64,000 nt of DNA, taken from a virus. The notes beneath the pieces are model-generated. The model ran no database searches, had not been told where the DNA came from, and worked only from the letters and a program-made list of their open reading frames with translations. Position numbers and translations under genes: made by a program. The stretch's first letter is position 1. The number at the start of each line of letters is the position of its first letter. Below, piece by piece: positions 1 through 58,598 of the stretch. The stretch covers positions 250,001 through 314,000 of the IMG/VR virus record IMGVR_UViG_3300045970_000794. One strand, given 5' to 3'.

Positions 1-144
1 ATCATATTCTTGTTTGGATGAAGTTTTTATAATTTCATCACGCCCAATACTATAACGATTAGTTTTTTCTTGAGGAACTTTAACACCTTCTGGACCAAAT
101 ACTTTATTTAATCGTTGAAATACAGTTAATTTTTTTTCTGCCAT
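1..144 (-). CDS. Partial gene, probable portal protein N-terminus
   Basis: Only the first 48 codons are inside the window; the gene runs off the left edge. The N-terminus (MAEKKLTVFQRLNKVFGPEG, then a KTSSKQEYD stretch) resembles the start of portal vertex proteins of large Bacteroidetes phages, and it lies two genes downstream of the large terminase, where a portal is expected. The portal would form the dodecameric DNA gate of the head. The call rests on a short N-terminus and gene order, so it is tentative. Confidence 0.5.
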   Translation of the reverse strand, partial: MAEKKLTVFQRLNKVFGPEGVKVPQEKTNRYSIGRDEIIKTSSKQEYD

Positions 145-190
145 AATATCTTTTTTATTAATTATAATCTTTTTTTAAATAAAATAAAGA

Positions 191-436
191 CTATTTTACG
201 TAATCACATGCAACATATGCTGACCTGTGTGTTATCACACCAACCAAATATGTATTATACACATAACTATTTGTATTATCATCACCTTGTGAATATGCTG
301 TCGCATCACAACCTGTTTTAGGCCTTACATGACCAGTTGTTTTAGCACTTTTATCACTATCACTTGGTTGCCATTGGTAAACATACCCACGAGTAGGGGT
401 CCTACCAAATATTTTTTTACTCTTATCTAACGCCAT
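191..436 (-). CDS. Small hypothetical protein between terminase and portal-like gene
   Basis: An 81-residue soluble protein with no membrane segment and no family I recognise. It lies 23 bp downstream of the large terminase gene on the same strand and upstream of the portal-like gene, so a packaging or virion role is possible by position only. An ATATTTATAT box, the candidate late-promoter motif of this window, lies just upstream of its ATG. Confidence 0.7.
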   Translation of the reverse strand: MALDKSKKIFGRTPTRGYVYQWQPSDSDKSAKTTGHVRPKTGCDATAYSQGDDNTNSYVYNTYLVGVITHRSAYVACDYVK

Positions 437-459
437 ATTAATATTATTTAATATAAATA

Positions 460-2244
460 TTATCTCATACCACTAAATAACCATAAGTAATCACCTTTAG
501 GGTCTTGCATATTCTTAGATACGATTGGTGTGAACTTAGGTTTATTCATTGGCGTTTTGCTACCTTTTGGAACAAAACCAGTATTATATTCATCAGTAGT
601 ATTTTTACCACCATTAACAACCCAGCTTTTTAGCATCGCCTTAGCTTGATTCTGGACTTTTTCTAAATTTTTAAATGAATGTTCTAACACCCATAATGCC
701 ATACCTAATGCCATTAATAAATCATCGTGATGACCTTTCATATGGTCTGGCCTACCGTCACGATAAACAAATGTTTTCATTTCGGATGTTAATCTGATTG
801 AACGTATTTTAACTAAATTCTGTCGGATGCTTTGTTCCAAATGCCCGATTAATGGTAAACGTATTGAATTTACTACTAAACCTGGTTTCTTATCATCATC
901 CATCACGTGTTTAGCCAAATCTTTTTGGTCTAATAATTTATTACGTTCACTATAATGGATATTTTTATATTTCACTTCAATCAACTTCAATACTGTTGAC
1001 ACACCCCAACCACCAGTAACGTCAACTACTACATATGCATTATACAATAACCCATACTCTTCAACTATTTTTGCTAATAAATCTGGTGGGACTTTACCAC
1101 GATATTCAGCTACTTCTTCCATTGTCGTAAAATCGATAATAACAAAAGTTGAAAAATCGTCACCACCACCACTGGATACGTCAACACCCATTATGTAACG
1201 ATGACCTTCAATTGGTTTTTCCCAAATCCAAATTTCTTTTTTAATACCAGATAGATATTGTGGTTCTTTGCAATTATTTTTAACGTGGAATTCAATAAAT
1301 TCATCATCAATAACCTGACCCCCAGAACCTAGAAATGATACATCTAATTCTTGAGCAATCATTCGTTTATCACCATTCATACCACGACACATTGCTTCGT
1401 ACCATGAAGAAGTTGGTTTATAACCCGTATCTAATTTACTTTTATAGCTTTCAAATGTGAATTCCATTTCAGTGATTACTTCCTCACCTTTTAACCATTT
1501 TAAATCAATATTATAACGGTTATCTTCATACCACTTCATTTCAACAACATTAAAGTCATTATCACCTTTTAGCGAACCATCATATGATTTCCAATACAAT
1601 TCATCGTAACCATTTGGTGTTGAAATTAATGTTGCTTTACCCCCAGTACCTAGCGATGTTAGTGCGGCTCCGAATACTTCATCACCATTATCAATAAACG
1701 CAGCTTCATCCATAACAAGATATGTAGGAGTAAAACCCCTCAACGCATCTTTAGATGTTGCAACCGCTTTGATTTCACATTTATTTGGTAACATTAATTT
1801 TCTATTGGAATCAACTAAGAATATTGATTTTGCTTCTTTTTCAGCATCACCATAATAATCTTCACCCCAAACCCATCTAGGTAATTGTAATAGAAAATCT
1901 TTAATTTTGGCCAAAAATTCTTCGGCCATATCTCTTTTATTTGCTAATATAAGTATTTTTTCTGGACTTTCATCACTAGCAAAACCAACTTTTATCGCTA
2001 AATAAGCCGCCGTTGTGGTTGAAACCCCAGCTTGTCTTGGTTTTGTTACTAAATTAAAACGATGTAATTCATACGCTTGAATTATTTGTCTTTGTCTTGG
2101 AAATAAATAGAATTGTACGAATCCACCCCTACCTTCATTATATGTTTTATCGAACGTCTTAAAATAAGTTTCGATAGCATACGTTGGATTCATCAAACAT
2201 TTAGCATATTCTTGTAATATTTCACCACTAGTTAAATTATTCAT
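460..2244 (-). CDS. terL: Terminase large subunit (DNA-packaging ATPase/nuclease)
   Basis: 594 residues, a normal length for T4 gp17-type terminases. The N-terminal ATPase has a Walker A-like loop KPRQAGVSTT near residues 68-77 and Walker B YLVMDEAAF with the acidic pair at 179-180, followed by a coupling-motif-like STPNG. The C-terminal RNase H-like nuclease shows GVDVSSGGGDD with the first acidic residue and a late HDDLLMALGMAL. In the family this protein docks on the portal, pumps DNA into the prohead and cuts the concatemer. The gene sits at the end of a minus-strand virion block, with a foreign-looking plus-strand HNH cassette directly upstream. Confidence 0.96.
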   Translation of the reverse strand: MNNLTSGEILQEYAKCLMNPTYAIETYFKTFDKTYNEGRGGFVQFYLFPRQRQIIQAYELHRFNLVTKPRQAGVSTTTAAYLAIKVGFASDESPEKILILANKRDMAEEFLAKIKDFLLQLPRWVWGEDYYGDAEKEAKSIFLVDSNRKLMLPNKCEIKAVATSKDALRGFTPTYLVMDEAAFIDNGDEVFGAALTSLGTGGKATLISTPNGYDELYWKSYDGSLKGDNDFNVVEMKWYEDNRYNIDLKWLKGEEVITEMEFTFESYKSKLDTGYKPTSSWYEAMCRGMNGDKRMIAQELDVSFLGSGGQVIDDEFIEFHVKNNCKEPQYLSGIKKEIWIWEKPIEGHRYIMGVDVSSGGGDDFSTFVIIDFTTMEEVAEYRGKVPPDLLAKIVEEYGLLYNAYVVVDVTGGWGVSTVLKLIEVKYKNIHYSERNKLLDQKDLAKHVMDDDKKPGLVVNSIRLPLIGHLEQSIRQNLVKIRSIRLTSEMKTFVYRDGRPDHMKGHHDDLLMALGMALWVLEHSFKNLEKVQNQAKAMLKSWVVNGGKNTTDEYNTGFVPKGSKTPMNKPKFTPIVSKNMQDPKGDYLWLFSGMR

Positions 2245-2380
2245 AAGTTATACTTTTATACTATATAAGTATTTAGAAAAATAAAAATGTTGGTTTTATT
2301 AACTTTTACAATATTTCTTATATTTATTGTTATAACGTTGTATAAACAATTAATAATATTAAAATAAAAACTATTTAATT

Positions 2381-2755
2381 ATGAAAAATGAAACCATAAC
2401 AATTAGGATTGAAGATGAATTGAAAAATGATTTTCAATGTATTTGTAACGAAGAACATACTGATATGTCGGATAAATTATATGAGTATATTATTACTGAA
2501 ATTAAAGCCAAAAAAAATACTATAATTAATACTAATTTTGAAAATATATTTAAATCATTTGGTTATACTAATGTTTTCATAGTGAATTTAGTAATAAATA
2601 AAATAGATAATAAAGAATATCAATTAATGACATTACGATTATCACATGATTATACATTAAGTGATTTTTTAAAAGATAATCAAAATAAAAAAACTTATAT
2701 ATATTTATCTGGTTCAGATTTACCAATTATGATTAGATATTTTACAATTGATTAA
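2381..2755 (+). CDS. Ribbon-helix-helix-like protein in homing cassette
   Basis: 124 residues. The first 45 (ITIRIEDELKNDF, then DMSDKLYEYI) have the beta strand plus two-helix spacing of a ribbon-helix-helix DNA-binding fold. The rest is unrecognised. It is 5 bp upstream of an HNH endonuclease on the same strand, opposite to all surrounding packaging genes, so the two probably form a mobile cassette in which this protein could regulate or assist the nuclease (inference). A TATATTTATT box lies about 55 bp upstream. Confidence 0.7.
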   Translation: MKNETITIRIEDELKNDFQCICNEEHTDMSDKLYEYIITEIKAKKNTIINTNFENIFKSFGYTNVFIVNLVINKIDNKEYQLMTLRLSHDYTLSDFLKDNQNKKTYIYLSGSDLPIMIRYFTID

Positions 2756-2760
2756 ATAAT

Positions 2761-3363
2761 ATGAAAACTGAAAAACAACAAATTCAATCACAAGAATCAC
2801 AACATAAATATTACATGAAAAATTGTGAAATTATTAAAGTTAAAAAGAAAAAATATTATAATGATAATCGTGAAACTGAGATTAAACGTAAAAGTGAATA
2901 TCAAAAGAAAAATAAAGAAAAGGTAAATGAATATAATCGAAAATATCGTGAAACTGAAAAATATAAATTATGGAAAATAAATAATAAAGAGAAAAATAGG
3001 ATTAATGATAAATTATCTGAAAATAATCGTTTAAAACATAATGCTTTATATAAGTTAAAACACAATATTAGGTCTTTAATTAGAAATTCATTTAAAAATA
3101 AAGAATTTAATAAAAAATCTAAAACAACTGATATACTTGGTTGTTCATTCGAAGAATTTAAATTACATTTAGAATCTAAGTTTGAATCATGGATGAACTG
3201 GGATAATCGTGGCTTATATAATGGCACACCAAATTATGGTTGGGATATTGACCATATTATTGCTCTTGCAACTGCATTGAGTGAAAATGATATAATTAAA
3301 TTAAATCATTATACTAATTTACAACCGCTATGTAGTTATATAAATCGAGATGTTAAAAGGTAA
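2761..3363 (+). CDS. HNH homing endonuclease-like protein
   Basis: 200 residues. Residues 1-110 are very rich in Lys, Asn and Glu. The C-terminus carries an HNH core: WDIDHIIALATA followed by LNHYTNLQPLCSYINRDVKR, with the His and Asn residues expected for the beta-beta-alpha metal finger. It is clearly paralogous to the gene at 42100-42738 (same C-terminal core, same basic N-terminus). Its place next to terL, on the opposite strand, fits a free-standing homing endonuclease. Strong A/T codon bias suggests recent acquisition. Confidence 0.88.
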   Translation: MKTEKQQIQSQESQHKYYMKNCEIIKVKKKKYYNDNRETEIKRKSEYQKKNKEKVNEYNRKYRETEKYKLWKINNKEKNRINDKLSENNRLKHNALYKLKHNIRSLIRNSFKNKEFNKKSKTTDILGCSFEEFKLHLESKFESWMNWDNRGLYNGTPNYGWDIDHIIALATALSENDIIKLNHYTNLQPLCSYINRDVKR

Positions 3364-3423
3364 TATCTCTCCCGATGTAAGCATATTGTATTATTTTATT
3401 AATAAATATGCGTAAAAACGTAA

Positions 3424-4173
3424 TTAGTACTTAAATGGCCAATTATCGGGGTCTCCTTGGGGTAATTTTGGGTCTACCATAGGGAATATAGTAAACTTAT
3501 CCACTGTATCCTTATCCGTCAATAAATTATAAAATAAATCATCACGACCATTATATGTTGATGACATAATCATTTGTCCACCACTTCTGAGTGAATTCGA
3601 TGCTACGTCAAACATTTCTGGGCCATTAATTAGGAATGCTGCATCTGAAATATAAACAATATCAGTCGTATAACCTCTAATTTCACCTGGGTTCACAACT
3701 GAAGTTATTGTACGACCACCAACACCAATAGATTTAATATTTTTATGTCTGAACTTTTCTTTATAATCATTAAAAAGATTATTCCGACTCATTAATATAT
3801 CGGCCATCATAGTGACTATCTGTATTAAATTATTACCAATAACTGATGTTGGTGAAATTATTATTACGTCATTACTATGATAATATGCTTGATAAATTAA
3901 ATAGACGCATACTATTAACCTTTCTCTGGTTCGTTGGTGCTTTGGTATTAGTATGTGCTTATTTGCCATTAGAAGGGTTAATAATACTAAATCTTGGTCA
4001 CCAAATTTATTAGATGATTTATCTAGTATTGTATTAAACTTATCTAATAAAAAATTAATACATTCATCCTTACCGATTGGTGTGAAAAATAATGCTGATA
4101 ATCTAATATTCTCAATAATTGTATCATTTAAAGTGATAAAACTATCGTTATTTAATTTTTCTAATAAATTCAT
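3424..4173 (-). CDS. Degenerate terminase-large-like ATPase domain (probably inactive)
   Basis: 249 residues that line up with the ATPase half of the TerL encoded just downstream. EIRGYTTDIVYISDAAFLIN here matches ALRGFTPTYLVMDEAAFIDN there, and both continue into a glycine-rich loop and S-T-x-NG. The site of the Walker A loop (PKHQRTRERL, residues 77-86) has no glycine or Lys-Ser/Thr, the Walker B Asp-Glu is Ser-Asp, and there is no nuclease domain. It is therefore most likely a non-hydrolysing paralogue, perhaps a structural partner of the motor. It could instead be a decaying duplicate, but the reading frame is fully intact. It lies 40 bp after a terminator. Confidence 0.75.
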   Translation of the reverse strand: MNLLEKLNNDSFITLNDTIIENIRLSALFFTPIGKDECINFLLDKFNTILDKSSNKFGDQDLVLLTLLMANKHILIPKHQRTRERLIVCVYLIYQAYYHSNDVIIISPTSVIGNNLIQIVTMMADILMSRNNLFNDYKEKFRHKNIKSIGVGGRTITSVVNPGEIRGYTTDIVYISDAAFLINGPEMFDVASNSLRSGGQMIMSSTYNGRDDLFYNLLTDKDTVDKFTIFPMVDPKLPQGDPDNWPFKY

Positions 4174-4189
4174 TAATAAAACATTAAAG

Positions 4190-4216
4190 TAAAAAGCCCC
4201 TATTGGGGCTTTATTT
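4190..4216. terminator. Rho-independent terminator, bidirectional
   Basis: Stem AAAGCCCC with TATT loop and GGGGCTTT arm (4193-4212), flanked by A and T tracts on both sides. It directly follows the stop codon of the 415-residue gene and separates it from the TerL-like gene. Confidence 0.85.
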
Positions 4217-5463
4217 TATAATCCGAAATCTGCTAAATCAATTCCATTAATACCATCCGAATCCAAATATTTTGTTTCTTCAAAGGTTTTTCTTCGTTCA
4301 TCAATAGCTTCATTGAATTCATCTTGTTTCATTTCTTTTTTAACTTGAGCAACAATATTGGTAATAATTTCTTTACCACTTGATGTTCCAGCGAAAATTT
4401 CTTTCATACTAGAATTGAACTCATCAACTGGTAATGATGCTAACTCCATATAAACTTGATGTTTAAGATTAAAATCTTCTGGTTCAAACAGTTTAGTAAA
4501 TCGTTCCCATAAAGCTGGTCCTAATCTCATATCCCATGGTTCAGCAGCTAAGAAATCAGCTTTACCTAATACATATTTTTGAATTTTCTCATCTTCTGGT
4601 AAACCATGTGATGATAATAATTCCATAGCACCTTTAGCTAATTCATGAATTAAAACTGGGAATATCAATGCTTGTGCATGAATCTTTGGTTTATCACCAT
4701 CTTTTTTAGGGAATTCAACACGTACAATACCACCTGGTACTCCACCCTCCATTTTATCAATAATGTAATACATATAATCAGCGGCCGCCATTGTTTTAGA
4801 ATATAAATTAGGGAGCCTAGGATTCATTTCAGATAATTCATTATCAACCATATGAAACATGTGGTGATTTTTCTTAGCGGCACCTTGAGTCATAGCATTT
4901 AATAATCTTCTTTTATAAACTTCAGCATTAGCGTTTTCTAAATCTTTATGACTCTTAAATTCCATACCTTCAACTGGTATTGGTTTAGGATTAAGTTTAG
5001 TACCTTCTAATGATATATTATCAACTAATTCAACTGTAATTTCAACATCTTCATCTGGTATATCAAACTCTTCACGAATCATTTTAATTGCTAATTCTTC
5101 AAGTTCTTTTCTATTAGCTTTTTCACTTACCATACAATCTTTAACCAATGGTAATTGAGCCGCTAATATCATTTCTGGTGTGATATTATCAGAATCAAAA
5201 TATTTTTTAGCATTTTTAACCACATCTTTGAATCTTTCACCAATAATTTTTTCTTCAAAATGTTGTTCATCACCTTCTGGAAATGCTGGGTGTTCACCCA
5301 ATGAGTGATTTCTACGTCTAAGCGCAATTTCTAATTCTGAAGCCATTCTTTCACTATGTTTATCATCATAAGTGATTCTAGATTCATTTAAATTATTATG
5401 ATTATTCTTAACATCGGTTAAGATTTTATCAATCATTTTTGAATATTTGTCTTGTTCTGGCAT
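4216..5463 (-). CDS. Conserved virion-module protein, function unknown
   Basis: 415 residues, largely acidic and helical, with no signal peptide or membrane segment. The middle contains a LIHELAKGAMELL segment in a region that otherwise looks structural; one HE pair without a second ligand motif is not enough to call a peptidase. The gene is the last of a minus-strand block running from about 9300 and is followed by a strong terminator. By position it is a head or neck protein, but I do not recognise the family. Confidence 0.8.
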   Translation of the reverse strand: MPEQDKYSKMIDKILTDVKNNHNNLNESRITYDDKHSERMASELEIALRRRNHSLGEHPAFPEGDEQHFEEKIIGERFKDVVKNAKKYFDSDNITPEMILAAQLPLVKDCMVSEKANRKELEELAIKMIREEFDIPDEDVEITVELVDNISLEGTKLNPKPIPVEGMEFKSHKDLENANAEVYKRRLLNAMTQGAAKKNHHMFHMVDNELSEMNPRLPNLYSKTMAAADYMYYIIDKMEGGVPGGIVRVEFPKKDGDKPKIHAQALIFPVLIHELAKGAMELLSSHGLPEDEKIQKYVLGKADFLAAEPWDMRLGPALWERFTKLFEPEDFNLKHQVYMELASLPVDEFNSSMKEIFAGTSSGKEIITNIVAQVKKEMKQDEFNEAIDERRKTFEETKYLDSDGINGIDLADFGL

Positions 5464-5466
5464 ATT

Positions 5467-6018
5467 CTATTTTTTTAAATTTTTAACTTTAATGGTTTCA
5501 ACAACCTTTAATTTGGTATTCTTTTCAATCAATTCAAGTAAATCCTTCTTTTTCATTTTAGGATTAACTTCAGTGCTTTCACCGATTGAAGTTGCCAAAG
5601 TATCAGCTATCATGGTTTTTAATTTATTAAGAGTATTACCATCCATCTGCAATCTTTTAATAAATTCATTAGCTATCGCTAGTTTATCTTTAGGTGCTTT
5701 AGCATTATTAGCAATTGCAACTAATGGCGCATTTTTATCTAATAACATGAAGAATTTTTCTGCTACTTGTGTTAATCCACCGAATTCTTGTTGGTTACTA
5801 GTATCAGTCGCTTGAGCTGGTATATCAGTAGCTTCAGACATACCAAGTGAATTTGTCACTGGTTTTGAAGAAGAAGCGTTATCATCAACCACATGTATTT
5901 CAGTACCAGGTTTTACTTTACTCTGAACATCCTTTACATCATTCTTAGTTGCATATACTACATCCTTAGTATCAGCTTCTTTTAGTTTCAACTTTATCTT
6001 TTCCTGTATGTTTTTCAT
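5467..6018 (-). CDS. Hypothetical protein of virion module
   Basis: 183 residues if translation starts at the internal ATG at 6018 (MKNIQEKIKLKLKEADTKDV), chosen because the longer frame only adds seven residues inside the preceding gene. The centre is Ser/Asp/Gln-rich and low complexity, and the C-terminus is Lys-rich with helix-forming stretches. The gene overlaps the preceding gene by 47 bp and ends 3 bp before the 415-residue gene, so the three are probably cotranscribed. Function unknown. Confidence 0.7.
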   Translation of the reverse strand: MKNIQEKIKLKLKEADTKDVVYATKNDVKDVQSKVKPGTEIHVVDDNASSSKPVTNSLGMSEATDIPAQATDTSNQQEFGGLTQVAEKFFMLLDKNAPLVAIANNAKAPKDKLAIANEFIKRLQMDGNTLNKLKTMIADTLATSIGESTEVNPKMKKKDLLELIEKNTKLKVVETIKVKNLKK

Positions 6019-6418
6019 TTTTACTATTATTAAAGTCAAGTATTATATCTTTTTCATATAATTTATTAGTTACTGAACTAATAGGTTCAGCGAATCTGAA
6101 ACACATTCTAATATCTGGATATTCATCATATTCAGATATATCTTCCCAACCTAACGCAATTACATTGTCTATCGCATCCCACACAGCAAATGTATCACTA
6201 TTTTGGATTAGATTTAACTTAATATCTGATACTAATATCCCAATTTTTTTAACTAAATCTGCTCTAGGTGGTTCTGGATTTCCAGCGGCTGGGTAAACAT
6301 CCCAATCAACACCATCAACATCACTAGTTTTATCCGAAAATAAAAATTCGTATCGATATTGCCCTTCCCAAGTTTTACCAACTTCATTAATATAAATTAA
6401 AAATAATTCAGATTCCAT
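5972..6418 (-). CDS. Hypothetical protein of virion module
   Basis: 148 residues with an aromatic, beta-rich N-terminus (GKTWEGQYRYEFLFSD) and an acidic middle. It shares one base with the stop of the upstream gene, a typical translational-coupling junction, and overlaps the following gene. Position suggests a structural or assembly factor; no family recognised. Confidence 0.8.
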   Translation of the reverse strand: MESELFLIYINEVGKTWEGQYRYEFLFSDKTSDVDGVDWDVYPAAGNPEPPRADLVKKIGILVSDIKLNLIQNSDTFAVWDAIDNVIALGWEDISEYDEYPDIRMCFRFAEPISSVTNKLYEKDIILDFNNSKNEKHTGKDKVETKRS

Positions 6419-7443
6419 TACTTAATACTTGCTTTTGGGTCTGGATTTTCCTTAATTCTAGGAACTTTCCATGGTTTATTTCTTCTTGTTGGTTGACTAT
6501 CTGGTTCTTTAGTCTTAGTGTCTGGTTCTTTAACTGGTGTTTCAATTTCTGGTTCACCATTATCACTAGTACTATTACCTAATAAACTAAATACTTCCTC
6601 AACTGTTTCAGTTAGAAAATTTGCTTTATTGAATTTATCCATAATGATTTTTTCAACAAAGGTACTATAATTTTCACCAATTGGCAAGTTTTCTGCAATA
6701 TTTTGTTCATACTCAATAACAACACCATCTTCAGAATTCTCAGTTATATTAAGAAATGTTTTTCTAAACCATTTATAACCATATGTAACATCACCCGAAA
6801 ATGAATATACTGCGATATCATGTTTTCCATTAGGATATTCAGCCCAAACATATTGGAATTTCTTAGGACCATCTTGTGTATTGATAGTGAATGGTTGCTC
6901 TGTACCGTAATCTTTTAAATAACCAACATACATTTCACCCATTGGGTCCTTAGCTTCTGGTTCTATCCCATCAACTATCATATTTTCTTCAACGTCAGCA
7001 TCATTTGGTAATGCCTCATCACCGCTAAATGAATCTTCTTTATCATTGGTTGGTTCATCTGGATTATCAGTAGGTTCTGAATTTTCATCACCTTGGCCAG
7101 CTGTCTTAATTTTTTTGATTATTTCGTTTTGGTCTTGTCCATCCATATCACCAGTATGTGTTGCGGAAACAACTGAATTAACAGCGAATTTTTCTAGCTC
7201 AAAATCTGGTTGACCTTGAGTTTCACTATATTTTCTCATTGTGGTACCTAATTTACCAGCTAATTGTTGAATGAATTTTTTAGGGTCACTATCTTCGTCA
7301 GCTTCAACGCCAGCGTCAAATGGTTCATCTTCAAATGGCTTATCACCACCGTCTTCAGAACCGCCACCAAAATCACCTAAATCTTCGGAATTGTCACCAA
7401 AACTTGGTTCAGCATCTGGGGTATTTTCTTCACCGCCAGACAT
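6418..7443 (-). CDS. Acidic virion-module protein, probable -1 frame continuation of upstream gene
   Basis: 341 residues from its first ATG. The first 130 are extremely acidic and Gly/Asp/Glu-rich, then comes a folded segment (about 150-260) and a Pro/Lys-rich tail. The open frame extends 27 codons upstream of this ATG right up to the A11 run that ends the preceding gene, where a -1 slip joins the two frames. The free ATG at 7443 has no promoter and no obvious ribosome signal, which favours expression as the second half of a roughly 581-residue fusion (see the A11 finding). Function unknown; a scaffold or prohead-core-like role is a guess from composition. Confidence 0.75.
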   Translation of the reverse strand: MSGGEENTPDAEPSFGDNSEDLGDFGGGSEDGGDKPFEDEPFDAGVEADEDSDPKKFIQQLAGKLGTTMRKYSETQGQPDFELEKFAVNSVVSATHTGDMDGQDQNEIIKKIKTAGQGDENSEPTDNPDEPTNDKEDSFSGDEALPNDADVEENMIVDGIEPEAKDPMGEMYVGYLKDYGTEQPFTINTQDGPKKFQYVWAEYPNGKHDIAVYSFSGDVTYGYKWFRKTFLNITENSEDGVVIEYEQNIAENLPIGENYSTFVEKIIMDKFNKANFLTETVEEVFSLLGNSTSDNGEPEIETPVKEPDTKTKEPDSQPTRRNKPWKVPRIKENPDPKASIK

Positions 7444-7520
7444 AAAATCAGCTGAAGGTGGAGTATCAGACTTTACCTTCAGCTTATATTTTAATTCATT
7501 GAGTTCTTGGACGGACTCAA

Positions 7521-8162
7521 CTACTTTTTTTTTTTAATATCATCAAGTGATTCGAAAACATCCTCGATACCTTTTGGTAATACATGCATATTGCAATAGC
7601 CACCATCATCTTCATTTATAGCTTTAGCTATTGATGAACTTCTAGATTCAGTTTGATAAGTTGAACCACATTCGTCACAATCTTCTTCTTTCTCATTTTC
7701 AAGCTCTTCAACAACTTCAGTTACAGTTTCTTCGTCATCACAAGCTTCTTCTTCATAAACTGGATTTTCTTGTTCCATGTTTAATAAATGTTCATTAGCG
7801 AATGTATTGATTTCACTAGTAATACCATAAGATTCAGCAACTACAATAAGTTTACCATTTAAACGTTTAAGTGCTTTCGCATATGTTGGATAGGATTCAT
7901 CATGTTTATTTTGTAATCCACCAATATATTGAAAATCTTCGGTAACTAATGGTCCTTTTTTCTGAGCAGCAATTTTAATGAAATAGTTGTGATTTTCTCT
8001 AACTATTGCATAGATTTTACCATCGGCAGCTTTTTTAGTTAATTCTACCACTGAATTTCTAACACTTTCATTTATAGGAGTTAATTTGTGCATTAAATCT
8101 TGAATATGTTGAAGTTGCTCTTTACCCTTTAAACCTACTGGGTTTATTCTGTTTTGATTCAT
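7521..8162 (-). CDS. Virion-module protein ending at an A11 slippery run
   Basis: 213 residues with a folded N-terminal domain (1-120) and an acidic, Cys-containing tail (CDDEE, then CDECG). It terminates with four Lys codons made from eleven A residues plus G and then TAG. The A AAA AAG heptamer at the stop is a classic -1 slippery sequence. After a -1 shift translation reads into the next 341-residue frame. A GGATATTTATTAA box lies about 30 bp upstream of the ATG. Function unknown. Confidence 0.78.
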   Translation of the reverse strand: MNQNRINPVGLKGKEQLQHIQDLMHKLTPINESVRNSVVELTKKAADGKIYAIVRENHNYFIKIAAQKKGPLVTEDFQYIGGLQNKHDESYPTYAKALKRLNGKLIVVAESYGITSEINTFANEHLLNMEQENPVYEEEACDDEETVTEVVEELENEKEEDCDECGSTYQTESRSSSIAKAINEDDGGYCNMHVLPKGIEDVFESLDDIKKKK

Positions 8163-8240
8163 ATGTTTATCTTTTTTTAACCATTATTTTTTAATAAATA
8201 TCCTCATAGTAATAAATATATCGATTTTAGCTAATATTCA

Positions 8241-8492
8241 TTATGGTAATGAGTAAGTTCCATTACTATTAACACAGTCCGATACATTAAGTGGACTACC
8301 AATTAAATAAACACTAGTTCCACCACTAATGCTTTGTATTTTTAGATTAATAGTTGTACCGCCAGCCAATGTCATTGCAGTTCCATTTACAACTGTTGTT
8401 GTATTAGCACCAATTACTAATTGACTATAAGTAAATGCGCTAAAATTAGCAGTTGCTGGTGTGTGTACGATACTATCATGTATTCCAATCAT
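8241..8492 (-). CDS. Small beta-rich virion-like protein
   Basis: 83 residues rich in Thr, Ser, Val and Gly with alternating hydrophobics, ending in CVNSNGTYSLP. The composition is like small capsid-decoration or fibre proteins. It sits inside the minus-strand virion block, with about 78 bp before the next gene. A structural role is inferred from composition and context only. Confidence 0.72.
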   Translation of the reverse strand: MIGIHDSIVHTPATANFSAFTYSQLVIGANTTTVVNGTAMTLAGGTTINLKIQSISGGTSVYLIGSPLNVSDCVNSNGTYSLP

Positions 8493-8514
8493 AATATTTC
8501 TTATTTAATATATA

Positions 8515-9300
8515 TTATTTATTTAATAAATATAGTGATTCATCCATAACTGTTATAGAATTGATTGAATCATATGCTCTATTTTTTAAATCTGTTAGTC
8601 TTTCTAGGTATTCACCACGCCTTAATACTTTAAAAACAATGTTTTCAATTGAGTATTCACCAGAATGGGTTAATCCTTTTTTTCTCATATCTTTAATCTT
8701 ATCCCAAAGTGGTTGATAAGCTTTCATTACATCATCATACTTTTCAGCCTTAAATAAATCCTCAATCTCATCAATCTCATCAATAATATCAGCAGCTTTC
8801 TGTTTCACAACTTCTTTATCGTATTTAGGCTTTTGTTTCTTAGGTTTTTTAATCCATTCATTATCTTCTAATGAATAAACACCACTAGCAACATGTGGCT
8901 CTTTATAATCTTGAGCGTATAATTCAACATCATAATCATTAACCGTTAAGTCGTGAAGGTCGTTCCAAGAATCTTTCTTTAATTTAAGATATTCTTTAAC
9001 TAAGTCAACATCATCATTAACATCTTTATAATCAATAATGACATGTAAATCAACATCCGAGAATTTGGACCAATTATAATTAGCTAAACTACCTGTTAAT
9101 CTAACATCTTTGATTTCAACCCATGGAATATCTAATGATTCAAAAAAATCATCAGCAATTTTCAATAATTGTTTCCTAACTTCTGGTCTGATTTTATTTT
9201 CAGTAGCCCAAAGTTTTGGATTCAATTTAGGTTTAATTTCAAATGAGTCCAAATTAACGTCTTCTGGATTTAATTTCTCCAATATTAAATGTTCTTTCAT
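8515..9300 (-). CDS. Nucleotidyltransferase-fold protein
   Basis: 261 residues. Near residue 68 the sequence VRLTGSLANYNWSKFSDVDL has the GS-x10-D-x-D signature of the DNA polymerase beta-like nucleotidyltransferase fold, so it may transfer a nucleotide to protein, RNA or a small molecule. A basic KKPKKQKPK segment follows near 155 and the C-terminus is helical. It starts 22 bp after the small beta-rich gene on the coding strand. The ATATTTATAA box 10-20 bp upstream of its ATG suggests it opens a late transcript. Confidence 0.82.
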   Translation of the reverse strand: MKEHLILEKLNPEDVNLDSFEIKPKLNPKLWATENKIRPEVRKQLLKIADDFFESLDIPWVEIKDVRLTGSLANYNWSKFSDVDLHVIIDYKDVNDDVDLVKEYLKLKKDSWNDLHDLTVNDYDVELYAQDYKEPHVASGVYSLEDNEWIKKPKKQKPKYDKEVVKQKAADIIDEIDEIEDLFKAEKYDDVMKAYQPLWDKIKDMRKKGLTHSGEYSIENIVFKVLRRGEYLERLTDLKNRAYDSINSITVMDESLYLLNK

Positions 9301-9390
9301 TGATTTTTATTTATAAATATCACTTAACATATTAAAATTCTTAATATTAATTTTAAATATCATCATCATATTTATTATAAATTCTATACT

Positions 9391-9669
9391 ATGAAAAATC
9401 TTATTAAAAACTACAAAAAGAGAATATGTACCACATGGTCTGGTGCGATATTGCATTTAATTATTTTCAATAATCCAGCTAGGCTTGTATTTTTCATTCT
9501 ATTAGCCATTATCGGTTCTATTATTACTCATGCGTTTAATAATGATGCATTATTATTTAAAATTTTAACATTGACAGGAATTTTATATAGTTTCGGATAT
9601 ACTATTATCGTAACTATTATCGCAATAAAAAATTACTTTAATGAATTAATAAAAAAAGCCCTTAATTAA
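9391..9669 (+). CDS. Small membrane protein
   Basis: 92 residues, basic N-terminus (KNYKKR), and two hydrophobic segments, about 30-50 and 65-85 (LVFFILLAIIGSIITHAF; then LTGILYSFGYTIIVTIIAI). It is isolated on the plus strand between two minus-strand blocks and ends inside a strong terminator. Probably an inner-membrane protein of unknown role. Confidence 0.75.
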   Translation: MKNLIKNYKKRICTTWSGAILHLIIFNNPARLVFFILLAIIGSIITHAFNNDALLFKILTLTGILYSFGYTIIVTIIAIKNYFNELIKKALN

Positions 9670-9677
9670 GGGCTTTT
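9654..9677. terminator. Bidirectional terminator between convergent genes
   Basis: A perfect 24-bp palindrome, AAAAGCCCTTAA and its complement, with A and T tracts. It serves both the small plus-strand membrane-protein gene and thyA. Confidence 0.88.
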
Positions 9678-9680
9678 ATA

Positions 9681-10643
9681 TTAAATAGCTATCGGTGCTT
9701 TTATTGCTGGGTGTGGGTCATACCCTTCAAATTTGATATCATCATATTTGTAATCAAATATGTTTTTAACTTCTGGATTCAACCAAAGCTTAGGCAATGG
9801 TCTTGAATCCCTACTTAATTGTTCAGCTACTTGGTCAAAATGATTCAAGTAAATATGTGTATCACCTAATGAACATATTAAATCACCCACAACCATGTTG
9901 GTTTGAGCTGCGAACATATGCAATAGGATGGCGTAGGATGCAATATTAAATGGAAGACCAAGGAAAGTATCAACCGAACGTTGATTCCACATTAAAGTGA
10001 GCTTACGAGTTGGGATATTTTTACCTTGTGGGTCGCTCAATATTGTTCTAATCTCCAAGTCAGCATCAATATTTTTACCATGATAGGTTTCTTCCATTGC
10101 TTTTTCATAATCAACACCAGCTAATTCACACATTTCTTTTGTCGTTAACTCATGCGTTTCCAATTGAAACCCATAATGGCAAGGTGTTAAAGCCATTTTA
10201 TCTAGGTCACCAACATTCCATGCACTTACAATCATTCTACGACAATCTGGATTAGTTCTTAATCGGTCAACCATCATTTCGATTTGGTTGATAGGGGTTT
10301 TTGGTATTTGACATACATTAAATGCAGACCAGCTTACCCATTGTTTACCATAGATTGGTCCTAGATTACCATCTTCATCAGCCCACTCATCCCAAATAGT
10401 AACACCATTTTCGTTAAGATACTTAATATTGGTATCACCTTTAAGGAACCATAATAATTCATGGATTACTGATTTCATATGAATTTTCTTTGTAGTTAAC
10501 AATGGAAATCCTTCACTAAGGTCAAACCTTAGCATGCGGCCGAATACTGAAATTGTACCAACGCCAGTGCGGTCTTTTTTTACAACGCCATTCGCTTGAA
10601 TGTCACGTAATAAATCTGTGTAAATTTTATCTGTTTTATTCAT
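9681..10643 (-). CDS. thyA: Thymidylate synthase
   Basis: 320 residues. Methylates dUMP to dTMP with methylene-tetrahydrofolate. Visible motifs: the arginine pair in RRMIVSAWN, the catalytic cysteine in MALTPCHYGFQ, the nucleotide-binding SLGDTHIYLNH and a complete C-terminus ending APIAI. An insert of about 50 residues follows the catalytic loop and makes it longer than the 264-residue E. coli enzyme. It would supply dTTP for phage DNA synthesis. It shares a minus-strand unit with the gene starting at 11020. Confidence 0.97.
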   Translation of the reverse strand: MNKTDKIYTDLLRDIQANGVVKKDRTGVGTISVFGRMLRFDLSEGFPLLTTKKIHMKSVIHELLWFLKGDTNIKYLNENGVTIWDEWADEDGNLGPIYGKQWVSWSAFNVCQIPKTPINQIEMMVDRLRTNPDCRRMIVSAWNVGDLDKMALTPCHYGFQLETHELTTKEMCELAGVDYEKAMEETYHGKNIDADLEIRTILSDPQGKNIPTRKLTLMWNQRSVDTFLGLPFNIASYAILLHMFAAQTNMVVGDLICSLGDTHIYLNHFDQVAEQLSRDSRPLPKLWLNPEVKNIFDYKYDDIKFEGYDPHPAIKAPIAI

Positions 10644-10654
10644 ATTTTTAAATT

Positions 10655-11020
10655 TTATTGTTGATATCTATTATATCTTAATAAGATACCTTTAAAAGGT
10701 ATCATTTCTAACTCTTCTGGTCTATATATTGTTGGTGTTAAACCAACATAAAAAAATATTAATTTTCGACCTAAATCAATTTCATTTTTAAAACAATTAA
10801 TATCTTCATTAAATTCTGTTAATTTATTATTACCAACATCTAATAGTGTTTTCATCATTCGTGTATCCATGCAACGTACACCACTACCATGGATGCATGT
10901 AGTGGCTAGTGCTATAGCGGAATCTAATTGAGCTAATTCTCTGATAAATGGAAATAATGATTCAACCTGATTAACCATTGTATCGTTAAAAATATTAGAA
11001 TTTAGGTTTGATATAGCCAT
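10655..11020 (-). CDS. Hypothetical protein upstream of thyA
   Basis: 121 residues, mostly helical, with three Cys residues and a CIHGSGVRCMDTRMMKTLL segment. It ends 11 bp before thyA, so the two are likely cotranscribed. No recognised family and no membrane segment. Confidence 0.75.
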   Translation of the reverse strand: MAISNLNSNIFNDTMVNQVESLFPFIRELAQLDSAIALATTCIHGSGVRCMDTRMMKTLLDVGNNKLTEFNEDINCFKNEIDLGRKLIFFYVGLTPTIYRPEELEMIPFKGILLRYNRYQQ

Positions 11021-11086
11021 ATATTGTAATGTATTATAACAAAGTAACCCAGATTTACTTAGTGGGTCTAGTCCATCAATGCAACC

Positions 11087-11134
11087 CTGTAAATTATAGT
11101 GAAAAATTAATTAATTTTTCACTATAATTTACAG
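11087..11134. repeat. Perfect 48-bp palindrome
   Basis: The left arm CTGTAAATTATAGTGAAAAA plus TTAA is followed immediately by its exact reverse complement, 24 bp per arm with no spacer and no mismatch. It lies in the 203-bp gap between the genes ending at 11224 and starting at 11020 on the minus strand. There is no T tract, so it is not a standard terminator. It could be a cruciform, a protein-binding or processing site, or an inverted assembly joint. Confidence 0.85.
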
Positions 11135-11160
11135 CCCATAAAATTGACTCTACAAACGAA

Positions 11161-11183
11161 ATGGGGGTAAAACTTACCCCCAT
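11161..11183. other. Hairpin ATGGGGGTAA / TTACCCCCAT
   Basis: A 10-bp perfect stem with a three-base loop, 26 bp from the 48-bp palindrome and downstream of the KTSC gene on the minus strand. It lacks a clear U tract but may end or stabilise that transcript. Confidence 0.6.
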
Positions 11184-11223
11184 CACATTTATATTTGGTG
11201 TTTGAAATAAATCCATGAGTGGA

Positions 11224-11664
11224 TTAAGCTAAAACTGCGTTTTTTGATTCTTTAACTTTGTTAATGAAATATTCAACGTTTTCCAAATCTTTAACATCAA
11301 TACTAGATTTGTTTTTACTAGCAATTAATAAAGCTTCCATTGTTGCAATAAGTTGCTTTTCTTCTTTTGACATTTCTTTTGGAGTGTATTTGTGGATTTC
11401 TCTAACTAATGTTGTTGTGTTAACATCAGTTAATCTTTCAGCTGGGTATTGTTTAATTCTACCATTAAGTTCTTTACCTTGACTATCAGATATTTCAAAT
11501 CTGGTATAATCAGTCATTCTAACTCCTTTATATTTGTACTGTGTTCCAGCGTTGAATACTACGGTTAATTCTTGTGTTGCTTTATCATATTTTGATGATA
11601 ATACGTTTGATGAGTTGAATAAACACTCAATTAATGTTCCATTTTCAATTTTTTTTACTAACAT
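11224..11664 (-). CDS. KTSC-domain protein
   Basis: 146 residues. Residues 15-75 (SSNVLSSKYDKATQELTVVF, then YKYKGV and a SDSQGKELNGRIKQYP segment) match the small beta-rich KTSC domain seen in phage and lysyl-tRNA-synthetase-associated proteins. The C-terminal half is a helical, Lys/Glu-rich tail. Molecular function of the domain is not settled. It is followed by the hairpin and palindrome region. Confidence 0.8.
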   Translation of the reverse strand: MLVKKIENGTLIECLFNSSNVLSSKYDKATQELTVVFNAGTQYKYKGVRMTDYTRFEISDSQGKELNGRIKQYPAERLTDVNTTTLVREIHKYTPKEMSKEEKQLIATMEALLIASKNKSSIDVKDLENVEYFINKVKESKNAVLA

Positions 11665-11689
11665 GGTTCTAAAATTTATTTATTTATTA

Positions 11690-11947
11690 TTATGATTTAT
11701 ATGTTCGATAACCAGCAATTTGGGATAAATGAAATATCCTACCAGTACTAGTTAATGAATGCTCTGGATGTACTTCGTCTTCAACAACGATAGCATAATC
11801 ACCTGTGATAATTAATCCAGCGTCAGTAAATTCTAGTCTAGTTGTTTGTGGGAAATCCTCAGTTTTAGGTATTAGCCCATCACTTTGTTTACTGGTATTA
11901 TTTTTCAATAATAATTCAACTTTACTATATTTTGGTGCTGTGTTCAT
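11690..11947 (-). CDS. Hypothetical protein
   Basis: 85 residues with an alternating beta pattern (TTRLEFTDAGLIITGDYAIV), no signal peptide. It lies 25 bp upstream of the KTSC gene on the same strand. Two TATAAATA-type boxes lie between it and the divergent clp promoter. Not recognised. Confidence 0.72.
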   Translation of the reverse strand: MNTAPKYSKVELLLKNNTSKQSDGLIPKTEDFPQTTRLEFTDAGLIITGDYAIVVEDEVHPEHSLTSTGRIFHLSQIAGYRTYKS

Positions 11948-12031
11948 CGTCTATTTATATTAATTAATATTTATAGAAACAAATATACTAATAAAAATTA
12001 AATAAATCAATAGAAAACATTATAATTTAAC

Positions 12032-57483: not shown

Positions 57484-57696
57484 TTAAACGGTACCTAATG
57501 TATCACCACAATCATTTACAATCCATATAACACCATTTTGATTATCATCAATGTATTTGATTCGATTTCTACACGGTTTATCAGTAAAGCCATCGGCGAA
57601 CATAAGCCCAAAGAAGAATAGGAATGCAATTGTTATTATCATTATTTTACCAGTTAATGTTAATCCATCACCGATATCAAAGCTTGATTTCTTCAC
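57484..57696 (-). CDS. Small membrane protein
   Basis: 70 residues, one helix at about 17-35 (IMIITIAFLFFFGLMFADGF) and a 35-residue outer part with two Cys. Overlaps the upstream gene by 20 bases. Confidence 0.7.
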   Translation of the reverse strand: MKKSSFDIGDGLTLTGKIMIITIAFLFFFGLMFADGFTDKPCRNRIKYIDDNQNGVIWIVNDCGDTLGTV

Positions 57697-58171
57697 GTTC
57701 TTTTAGTCTTTTTTTATGTTTTAACATTCGTCTATATAATTCTTCAACAATATCGAATGATACCTGAGTACATCCAATAATAAACTTATCAATACCAAGG
57801 TTTACAATATGTTCACCAATTTTAATTGGAAGGTCTGGTACTTCATAACCTTCTGGCATATCTGATAATTCTAGATTTTTTACAGAATAACTTACGTTTG
57901 CAAGGTCATCAGTAGTTTTAACATCAGCATAATCAACTGGGTATGCACTGAAAAAGCCAAGTCTTCTTAACTCATCATGAGCTGATTCAATAGCATTTTG
58001 GCAAAGGTATATTTTTTTATGTTCAACATCATTGAAGATTAAACCATCTATCATCTTTGACCGATACATAGCAGTAAAATAGGTACCACTGGGTACTTTA
58101 TCCCAATGTATCACATGAACAGTTTCTTCTGTTAAATATTTTTTATCCATGGGATTAATCTTTTTTATCAA
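57677..58171 (-). CDS. Hypothetical protein, tandem paralogue
   Basis: 164 residues (157 if translation starts at the ATG at 58150). HWDKVPSGTYFTAMY, IDGLIFNDVEHKKIYLCQNA and EVPDLPIKIGEH match the neighbouring gene position by position. Product of a local duplication. Function unknown. Confidence 0.76.
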   Translation of the reverse strand: MIKKINPMDKKYLTEETVHVIHWDKVPSGTYFTAMYRSKMIDGLIFNDVEHKKIYLCQNAIESAHDELRRLGFFSAYPVDYADVKTTDDLANVSYSVKNLELSDMPEGYEVPDLPIKIGEHIVNLGIDKFIIGCTQVSFDIVEELYRRMLKHKKRLKEREEIKL

Positions 58172-58598
58172 TTAAGTTATCAGCGATTTTACGTACCAAA
58201 TCATTGTCAATAGTTGTACAACCAACTTTGATGTGACCTTCCTTTATTTCAAGTTTATAGTCACCAATTCTTATTGGTAAGTCTGGTGTAACAAAACCTT
58301 CTTGTACATCAAGAATTTCAATATTTCTCATACTACCATAACCACCAAATTCCAATTCAGCAACAGTTCTTATAGTGTTATAATTTAAAGTGAATCCAAA
58401 TTTATACCCTAAATTGTTTGGTGCATCTGAACCTTGAGCAAAATCTTGGCATAAAATTATCTTTTTATCATCTACATTATTAAATATAAGACCAGATATT
58501 GGGTTTTCGTTATAAATCGCTCTAAATTCAGTACCAGTTGGTACATTTTCCCATCTGATATATTCAGTAACTTGTTTTCTAATACAATTTTCATTCAT
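58155..58598 (-). CDS. Hypothetical protein, tandem paralogue
   Basis: 147 residues. RWENVPTGTEFRAIY, ISGLIFNNVDDKKIILCQDF and VTPDLPIRIGDYKLEI are shared with the gene at 57677. It lacks the basic tail of its relative. Confidence 0.76.
   Translation of the reverse strand: MNENCIRKQVTEYIRWENVPTGTEFRAIYNENPISGLIFNNVDDKKIILCQDFAQGSDAPNNLGYKFGFTLNYNTIRTVAELEFGGYGSMRNIEILDVQEGFVTPDLPIRIGDYKLEIKEGHIKVGCTTIDNDLVRKIADNLIDKKD

Follow-up and report, generated by a model that had tools for sequence, protein, structure and literature searches.

Within a window of 64,000 nucleotides, which covers positions 250001-314000 of the 362,102-base record of a giant bacterial virus of the jumbo-phage lineage, two neighbouring genes carry terminase-like sequence. 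One encodes the large terminase subunit (TerL); the other encodes a protein of 249 residues, here termed Q. The locus raises the questions of what Q is, how it came to lie beside a functional homologue and whether it still serves the phage.

Organization of the locus

The TerL gene (460-2244, minus strand) is intact and encodes 594 residues with both the ATPase and the nuclease half. The protein matches Pfam Terminase_6N (E = 1.2e-7) and PHROG 2 (E = 6.7e-48), and its Walker A motif is of the KxRQxGxST type. Going upstream of TerL in its own reading direction, the order of the genes is ORF124 (2381-2755, plus strand), an HNH homing-type endonuclease gene (2761-3363, plus strand; PHROG 1035, endonuclease VII, E = 1.4e-8), Q (3424-4173, minus strand) and a conserved gene of 415 codons (4216-5463, minus strand). 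The 415-residue protein has no assigned function; in relatives, terL is directly preceded by the homologous gene. A spacer separates ORF124 from TerL (2245-2380), and an intrinsic terminator (4193-4212, minus strand) is located directly upstream of Q. The frame of Q comprises 249 codons with zero internal stops, as stated in a first-pass annotation of the sequence, which had described an intact frame beside an active TerL.

Relationship of Q to TerL

Alignment of Q with the TerL of the same genome by blastp showed 40% identity over residues 165-216 (E = 3e-10), a score reached by none of 1000 shuffled sequences. As a TerL family match, Q scores 38.0 bits on an HMM of the clade TerLs (0/1000 shuffles). 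Residues 153-235 (3469-3717, minus strand), which contain the RG-T motif, the Walker B region and motif III, score 40.2 on an HMM of the ATPase part of these TerLs, whereas the best of 1000 shuffles scores 5.7; blastp and HMM comparisons make the homology of this segment to TerL statistically certain. PHROG 7579, annotated as terminase large subunit, matches residues 97-222 (E = 1.1e-5). Q falls below the Pfam Terminase_6N cut-off, and a phmmer comparison with PDB sequences gave chance matches only. The best-block identity between Q and its own TerL is 38%, compared with 54-77% between that TerL and those of relatives. Judged by these comparisons, Q is almost certainly a partial duplicate derived from TerL.

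The first-pass annotation had aligned Q with the TerL ATPase half over its whole length. This alignment is strong for residues 153-235, likely for residues ~64-152 and unproven for residues 1-60, so that the whole-length claim is overstated. Residues 1-150 alone behave like shuffled sequence on the clade HMM, their score being reached by 685 of 1000 shuffles. Summed semi-global alignments of residues 51-158 to 26 TerLs gave a score that 8 of 400 shuffles equalled or exceeded; the TerL of Microcystis phage Mel-JY01 stood out as the one strong partner (z about 5). The TerLs of Microcystis, Flavobacterium and Rhodothermus phages align from Q residue ~46-64 in one register that places Lys78 on the terminase P-loop lysine, and the first residue of the conserved block is 165 in Q and 168 in TerL. 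On alignment grounds, residues ~64-235 are likely derived from TerL, the similarity within residues 64-152 is by itself suggestive, and a TerL origin of residues 1-60 is unproven.

Catalytic motifs and predicted fold

The landmarks reported earlier, RG-T, AAF, S-L-x2-GG and S-T-x-N-G, are all present in Q, and the reported loss of Walker A and of the catalytic acid is borne out. The P-loop of the clade TerLs is lysine-first, K-x-R-Q-A-G-(V/I)-(S/T)-T, like those of the Flavobacterium, Rhodothermus and Microcystis phage TerLs; in the Vibrio and Pseudomonas phage TerLs the corresponding sequence is RQxGK(S/T). The equivalent segment of Q is KHQRTRERLIV (residues 78-88; 3910-3942, minus strand), in which KPRQAGVST of TerL is replaced by KHQRTRERL, with only Lys78 retained and the Gly and Ser/Thr lost, a reading that depends on the likely but not certain homology of residues 64-152. 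The Walker B equivalent, DIVYISD (residues 171-177; 3643-3663, minus strand), lies inside the block of certain homology, and here (V/I)(M/F)DE of TerL has become I-S-D through the replacements D176S and E177D. Motif III, S-T-P-N-G in TerL, is retained as STYNG (residues 205-209; 3547-3561, minus strand) with P207Y. The frame ends after motif III, at about TerL residue 245-250, leaving Q without the hinge subdomain and, as already noted in the first reading, without the C-terminal RNase H-fold nuclease; the DNA past its end is the endonuclease gene. Across 19 TerLs, 63 columns are invariant, and Q retains 19 of them, mainly in RG-T, AA, S, GG and ST-NG-D. The invariant residues lost include R80, Q81, A82, G83, T86 and T88, A107, N108 and K109, D176 (S), E177 (D) and P207 (Y).

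A single-sequence structure model of Q had a pLDDT of 34 and gave no usable match. The model built from an alignment of 19 TerLs reached a pLDDT of 65 and a pTM of 0.67, values that are partly circular since the alignment itself consists of TerLs. With the same alignment bias, residues 32-235 of this model superimpose on residues 110-316 of T4 gp17 (2o0j) with a Z score of 17.5 and an r.m.s.d. of 3.0 over 193 residues, and the match to the P74-26 TerL has a Z score of 17.6. Within this partial circularity, the modelled structure agrees with a TerL ATPase fold.

Comparison with relatives

A scan with TerL retained the best 80 relative loci, with TerL identities of 41-60%. Both flanks of terL are visible at 13 tabulated loci (L003, L004, L006, L007, L008, L010, L011, L014, L033, L071, L072, L076 and L079), among them that of the closest relative, with 60% TerL identity. 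In all 13, the homologue of the 415-residue gene is followed by terL, and Q, the endonuclease gene and ORF124 are absent. A 14th tabulated contig (L005) has terL without Q, its upstream gene being out of view. Relative to these loci, the present genome carries a 1.9-kb insert made up of ORF124, the HNH endonuclease gene and Q. No second convincing terL-like frame was found in the best 80 relative loci, and in the records of 22 relatives, most of them partial and some short, TerL was the sole match to Q. The search for orthologues proposed in the first-pass annotation likewise returned none from 2.9 million viral contigs, 50,697 phage records and 84,980 prokaryote genomes. The annotated matches listed for Q among the phage records are full TerLs, and all matches to the degenerate patterns RG[YF]T..DAAF and DAAF..NG..GG are unrelated.

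The terminator hairpin between the 415-residue gene and Q, AAAGCCCCAATAGGGGCTTT, corresponds to AAAAAGCTCCAATTTGGGGCTTTTT in L004 and AAAAGCCCCAATTTGGGGCTTTTT in L006. In both relatives the hairpin occupies the same place and the next gene is terL; therefore, Q sits at the ancestral position of terL. The complete terL of the present genome is located on the opposite side of the endonuclease cassette from Q.

The residues RGYT, AAF..NG and NG.D(D/E)L(F/Y) are common to Q and the clade TerLs and are not found in the Flavobacterium, Rhodothermus, Vibrio and Pseudomonas phage TerLs. A tree of the conserved block placed Q beside L007 with 64% support and a branch length of 1.49. The tree of full-length sequences placed Q outside the clade on a 4.5-unit branch, which is read as a long-branch effect. 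An origin of Q from a distant phage was also considered and is disfavoured by the block tree and the clade-specific residues.

The endonuclease family and the capsid gene

The HNH endonuclease upstream of TerL is one of nine family members encoded in the genome. The first ~45 residues of ORF124 recur in ORF190 (G000:193473-194045, plus strand; L112), which directly precedes another endonuclease copy. The rest of ORF190 is weakly prohead-protease-like (HMM E = 0.015 among 1549 frames). One endonuclease copy (G000:104907-105388, minus strand; L110) is interrupted by stop codons, as would be expected if this mobile family turns over.

The gene of the major capsid protein (Gp23; G000:242072-243859) is followed by three frames of this type, an endonuclease copy at 241292-241975 and two that are endonuclease-like. 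Beyond these frames lies a duplicate of the 3' end of the capsid gene (G000:239893-240012; L113). Of the last 24 triplets of the two copies, stop included, 23 specify the same residues, and 13 of the 72 bases differ, so that at the sequence level it looks as if one copy had been recoded. Insertion of an endonuclease gene with partial duplication of the target gene has probably occurred at the capsid gene of this genome.

This duplicate is the clearest of several late-gene fragments in the genome; further ones were observed. ORF162 (G000:52504-52992, minus strand; L108) encodes 162 residues, of which 77 are unrelated and are joined to a piece of the Gp23 capsid protein (Pfam Gp23, E = 6.5e-11; 58% identity to the capsid protein of this phage over 48 residues), and it lies 0.6 kb from an endonuclease copy. 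Short stand-alone frames of this kind were not found among the best 80 relative loci. ORF77 (77 residues; G000:214849-214959, plus strand; L118 1390-1623) lies beside a dUTPase-like gene, and its end resembles the N-terminus of the major capsid protein, KW.E.GLLEGLKG..N.NLA (profile E = 1.7e-5).

A possible origin of Q

Endonucleases of the HNH type are frequent neighbours of terL and of capsid genes (PMC10448857). In T-even phages, segmental amplification can be driven by a homing endonuclease, SegB (PMC13096335). An origin of Q in association with the cassette is moderately favoured, and we infer that the cassette caused the duplication of terL. The ORF124-HNH cassette would have entered the interval that separates terL from the conserved gene upstream of it. 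By the simplest route, an endonuclease would have cut within an older terL, and the break would have been repaired from a relative with the cassette beside its terL. Such repair would leave the cassette flanked by a new, complete terL and, on its opposite side, by the old 5' part, which would have kept its place immediately behind the ancestral terminator. The stranded part would then have lost ATP binding and hydrolysis while selection held its frame open for most of the divergence, and it would now probably work as a non-catalytic, non-essential accessory. Several points stand against this scenario. The divergence of Q is old and the capsid stub is young, and a shared mechanism is not required. 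In addition, residues 1-60 may be unrelated to TerL, which would make Q a chimera and not a 5' half left stranded, and the full-length tree places Q outside the clade. Taken as a whole, the reading that Q is a partial copy of terL, comprising its 5' ATPase part, made within this jumbo-phage lineage via the cassette and afterwards retained in a non-catalytic form, hangs in an even balance.

Coding signal, selection and transcription

The codon log-likelihood of Q is +0.111 per codon in its own frame and negative in the other five frames; the value is the ninth lowest of 73 ORFs. In simulations (4 x 300 runs), a TerL 5' half was allowed to decay neutrally from several starting identities until its block identity matched that observed. 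The simulated sequences accumulated means of 7.0-9.6 stops, and none of the 1200 runs ended free of stops; therefore, the Q protein has likely been selected for most of its history. This backs the earlier argument that the frame is intact and hence probably selected. The protein is probably still under selection.

The motif TATTTAT occurs upstream of terL in 35 of 35 distinct relatives (L004 to L080), mostly 8-12 nucleotides before the start codon, and by its position is probably the late promoter of these phages. The TerL and Q of the present genome have one-mismatch versions only, TACTTAT in the spacer upstream of TerL and, at Q, a version that overlaps the start codon. The idea that Q alone lost a promoter kept by TerL finds no support, as both motifs carry one mismatch. 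Q begins 17 nucleotides behind the terminator. With the terminator at this distance and no exact TATTTAT, transcription of Q is therefore uncertain. Many other genes of the window have TAnnTTTG boxes, as in Bacteroidetes promoters.

Possible roles of Q and alternative explanations

A role in interfering with or regulating packaging is a tentative possibility for Q. As a guess, Q might bind a partner of the packaging reaction (TerL, the portal or the DNA end) without turnover and so damp or compete with packaging, perhaps that of co-infecting relatives. Binding without turnover fits the anatomy of Q better than a permanent place in the ring. The first-pass annotation had suggested a non-hydrolysing ring subunit, and this suggestion is not supported. 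Q is absent beside terL in relatives whose TerL is 41-60% identical, therefore it is not a required part, and a fixed ring subunit is unlikely. More generally, Q might enter or cap the TerL ring of its own motor as a non-hydrolysing subunit or regulator, and in keeping with this it is derived from TerL, adjoins terL on the same strand and retains RG-T and the region of motif III. However, all relatives with the same packaging module lack it (80 loci and 22 records), its hinge and nuclease are missing, and a terminator stands between Q and the upstream gene. In T4, moreover, inactive full-length gp17 in the pentamer lowers the packaging velocity about 1.5-fold and raises pausing (PMC8589836). 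A part in the phage's own motor is accordingly improbable.

Q may instead be a plain, functionless remnant in decay, either the 5' part left behind from an older terL or a piece acquired by co-conversion, with a frame kept open by luck or by recent relaxation. Its location behind a conserved terminator without the promoter motif, its codon signature in the lowest eighth of the ORFs, its absence from every relative and the adjoining mobile endonuclease would all suit such a remnant. Against this, neutral drift from any plausible TerL closed the frame in every simulation, and more than half of the clade-invariant residues are replaced in Q, so that the loss is not recent; the remnant is an unlikely explanation, though one with some weight. 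About as doubtful is a chimera in which illegitimate recombination joined an unrelated N-terminus of 60-150 residues to a TerL piece of ~80 residues. The missing HMM signal in residues 1-150 would be explained, and ORF162 is built alike, but the nearly equal block starts in Q and TerL, the single register of the distant TerLs with Lys78 on the terminase lysine, and the rarity of shuffles matching the summed score of residues 51-158 argue for a longer TerL-derived segment. A further candidate is a defence decoy, in which Q as a TerL-like shell would bind a bacterial terminase sensor of the Avs type without triggering it, or would sequester it. TerL is a known ligand of Avs3 (PDB 8dgc), the TerL-aligned model of Q matches this entry (Z score of 16.1), and the genome also holds fragments of capsid protein, another kind of protein recognised by defence systems. 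However, the model behind this Z score was built with TerL sequences, and the literature searched does not treat Avs3, terminase and decoys together; we regard the decoy as very unlikely. A broader variant supposes that the genome retains selected dead or fragmentary copies of late genes as dominant-negatives or decoys against related phages or host sensors. The fragments behind it are Q, ORF162, ORF77 and perhaps ORF190, several of them beside HNH endonuclease copies, and it too has a low probability, though a less extreme one. The least probable of all is that Q is the N-terminal exon of a split or spliced terL, as in phage ICP1, where a homing endonuclease adjoins the N-terminal exon of the terminase (PMC10448857). 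The TerL in the window is complete, having a Walker A and nuclease motifs of its own, positions 1-12000 contain no match to an intron RNA family, and a motor made with Q as an alternative exon would be inactive, since the ATPase motifs of Q are dead; this candidate was rejected.

Comparison with known systems

Q resembles T4-type gp17/TerL proteins (Terminase_6N; PHROG 2 and 7579) in residues 153-235, with RG-T, the Walker B region and motif III, but unlike them it has no usable Walker A, catalytic Glu, hinge or nuclease. In the ICP1-type survey (PMC10448857), HNH endonucleases likewise form a multi-copy family that is inserted beside terL and capsid genes and absent in relatives. The present locus has in addition a long, diverged and open 5' copy of the neighbouring gene, and homing is predicted only. 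The spliced terL of ICP1 also places a separate N-terminal terminase piece beside an endonuclease gene (PMC10448857). There, however, the genome has a single terL and the piece is one of its exons, whereas the present terL is complete without Q, which is an additional, dead copy. As with SegB of T-even phages (PMC13096335), a free-standing homing endonuclease occurs together with duplicated genome segments. The SegB duplications are tandem intact anti-defence genes under selection, whereas the present one is a single diverged partial packaging gene known from sequence. The literature searched contained no second ATPase-dead, nuclease-less terminase homologue that lies beside an active TerL and has stayed open past the neutral-decay limit.

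Compared with the first-pass annotation, the endonuclease insert, the conserved terminator before Q, its ancestral position, its absence in relatives, the neutral-decay test and the other late-gene fragments are new. If Q is expressed, it offers a test of whether selfish endonucleases supply phages with inactive duplicates of essential genes, later put to use as regulators or weapons, and a natural counterpart to the doping of the T4 motor with inactive subunits. If it is not expressed, the locus is a record of how packaging and capsid genes were partially duplicated in association with endonucleases.

Two side observations were made. At 57677-58598 of the window (minus strand), two adjacent paralogous ORFs of 157 and 147 residues share 33% identity and represent a tandem duplication. 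A contig of 4,988 bases (L139, IMGVR_UViG_3300045971_000241) carries a prohead protease fragment 100% identical to that of this phage and represents a near-identical sibling.
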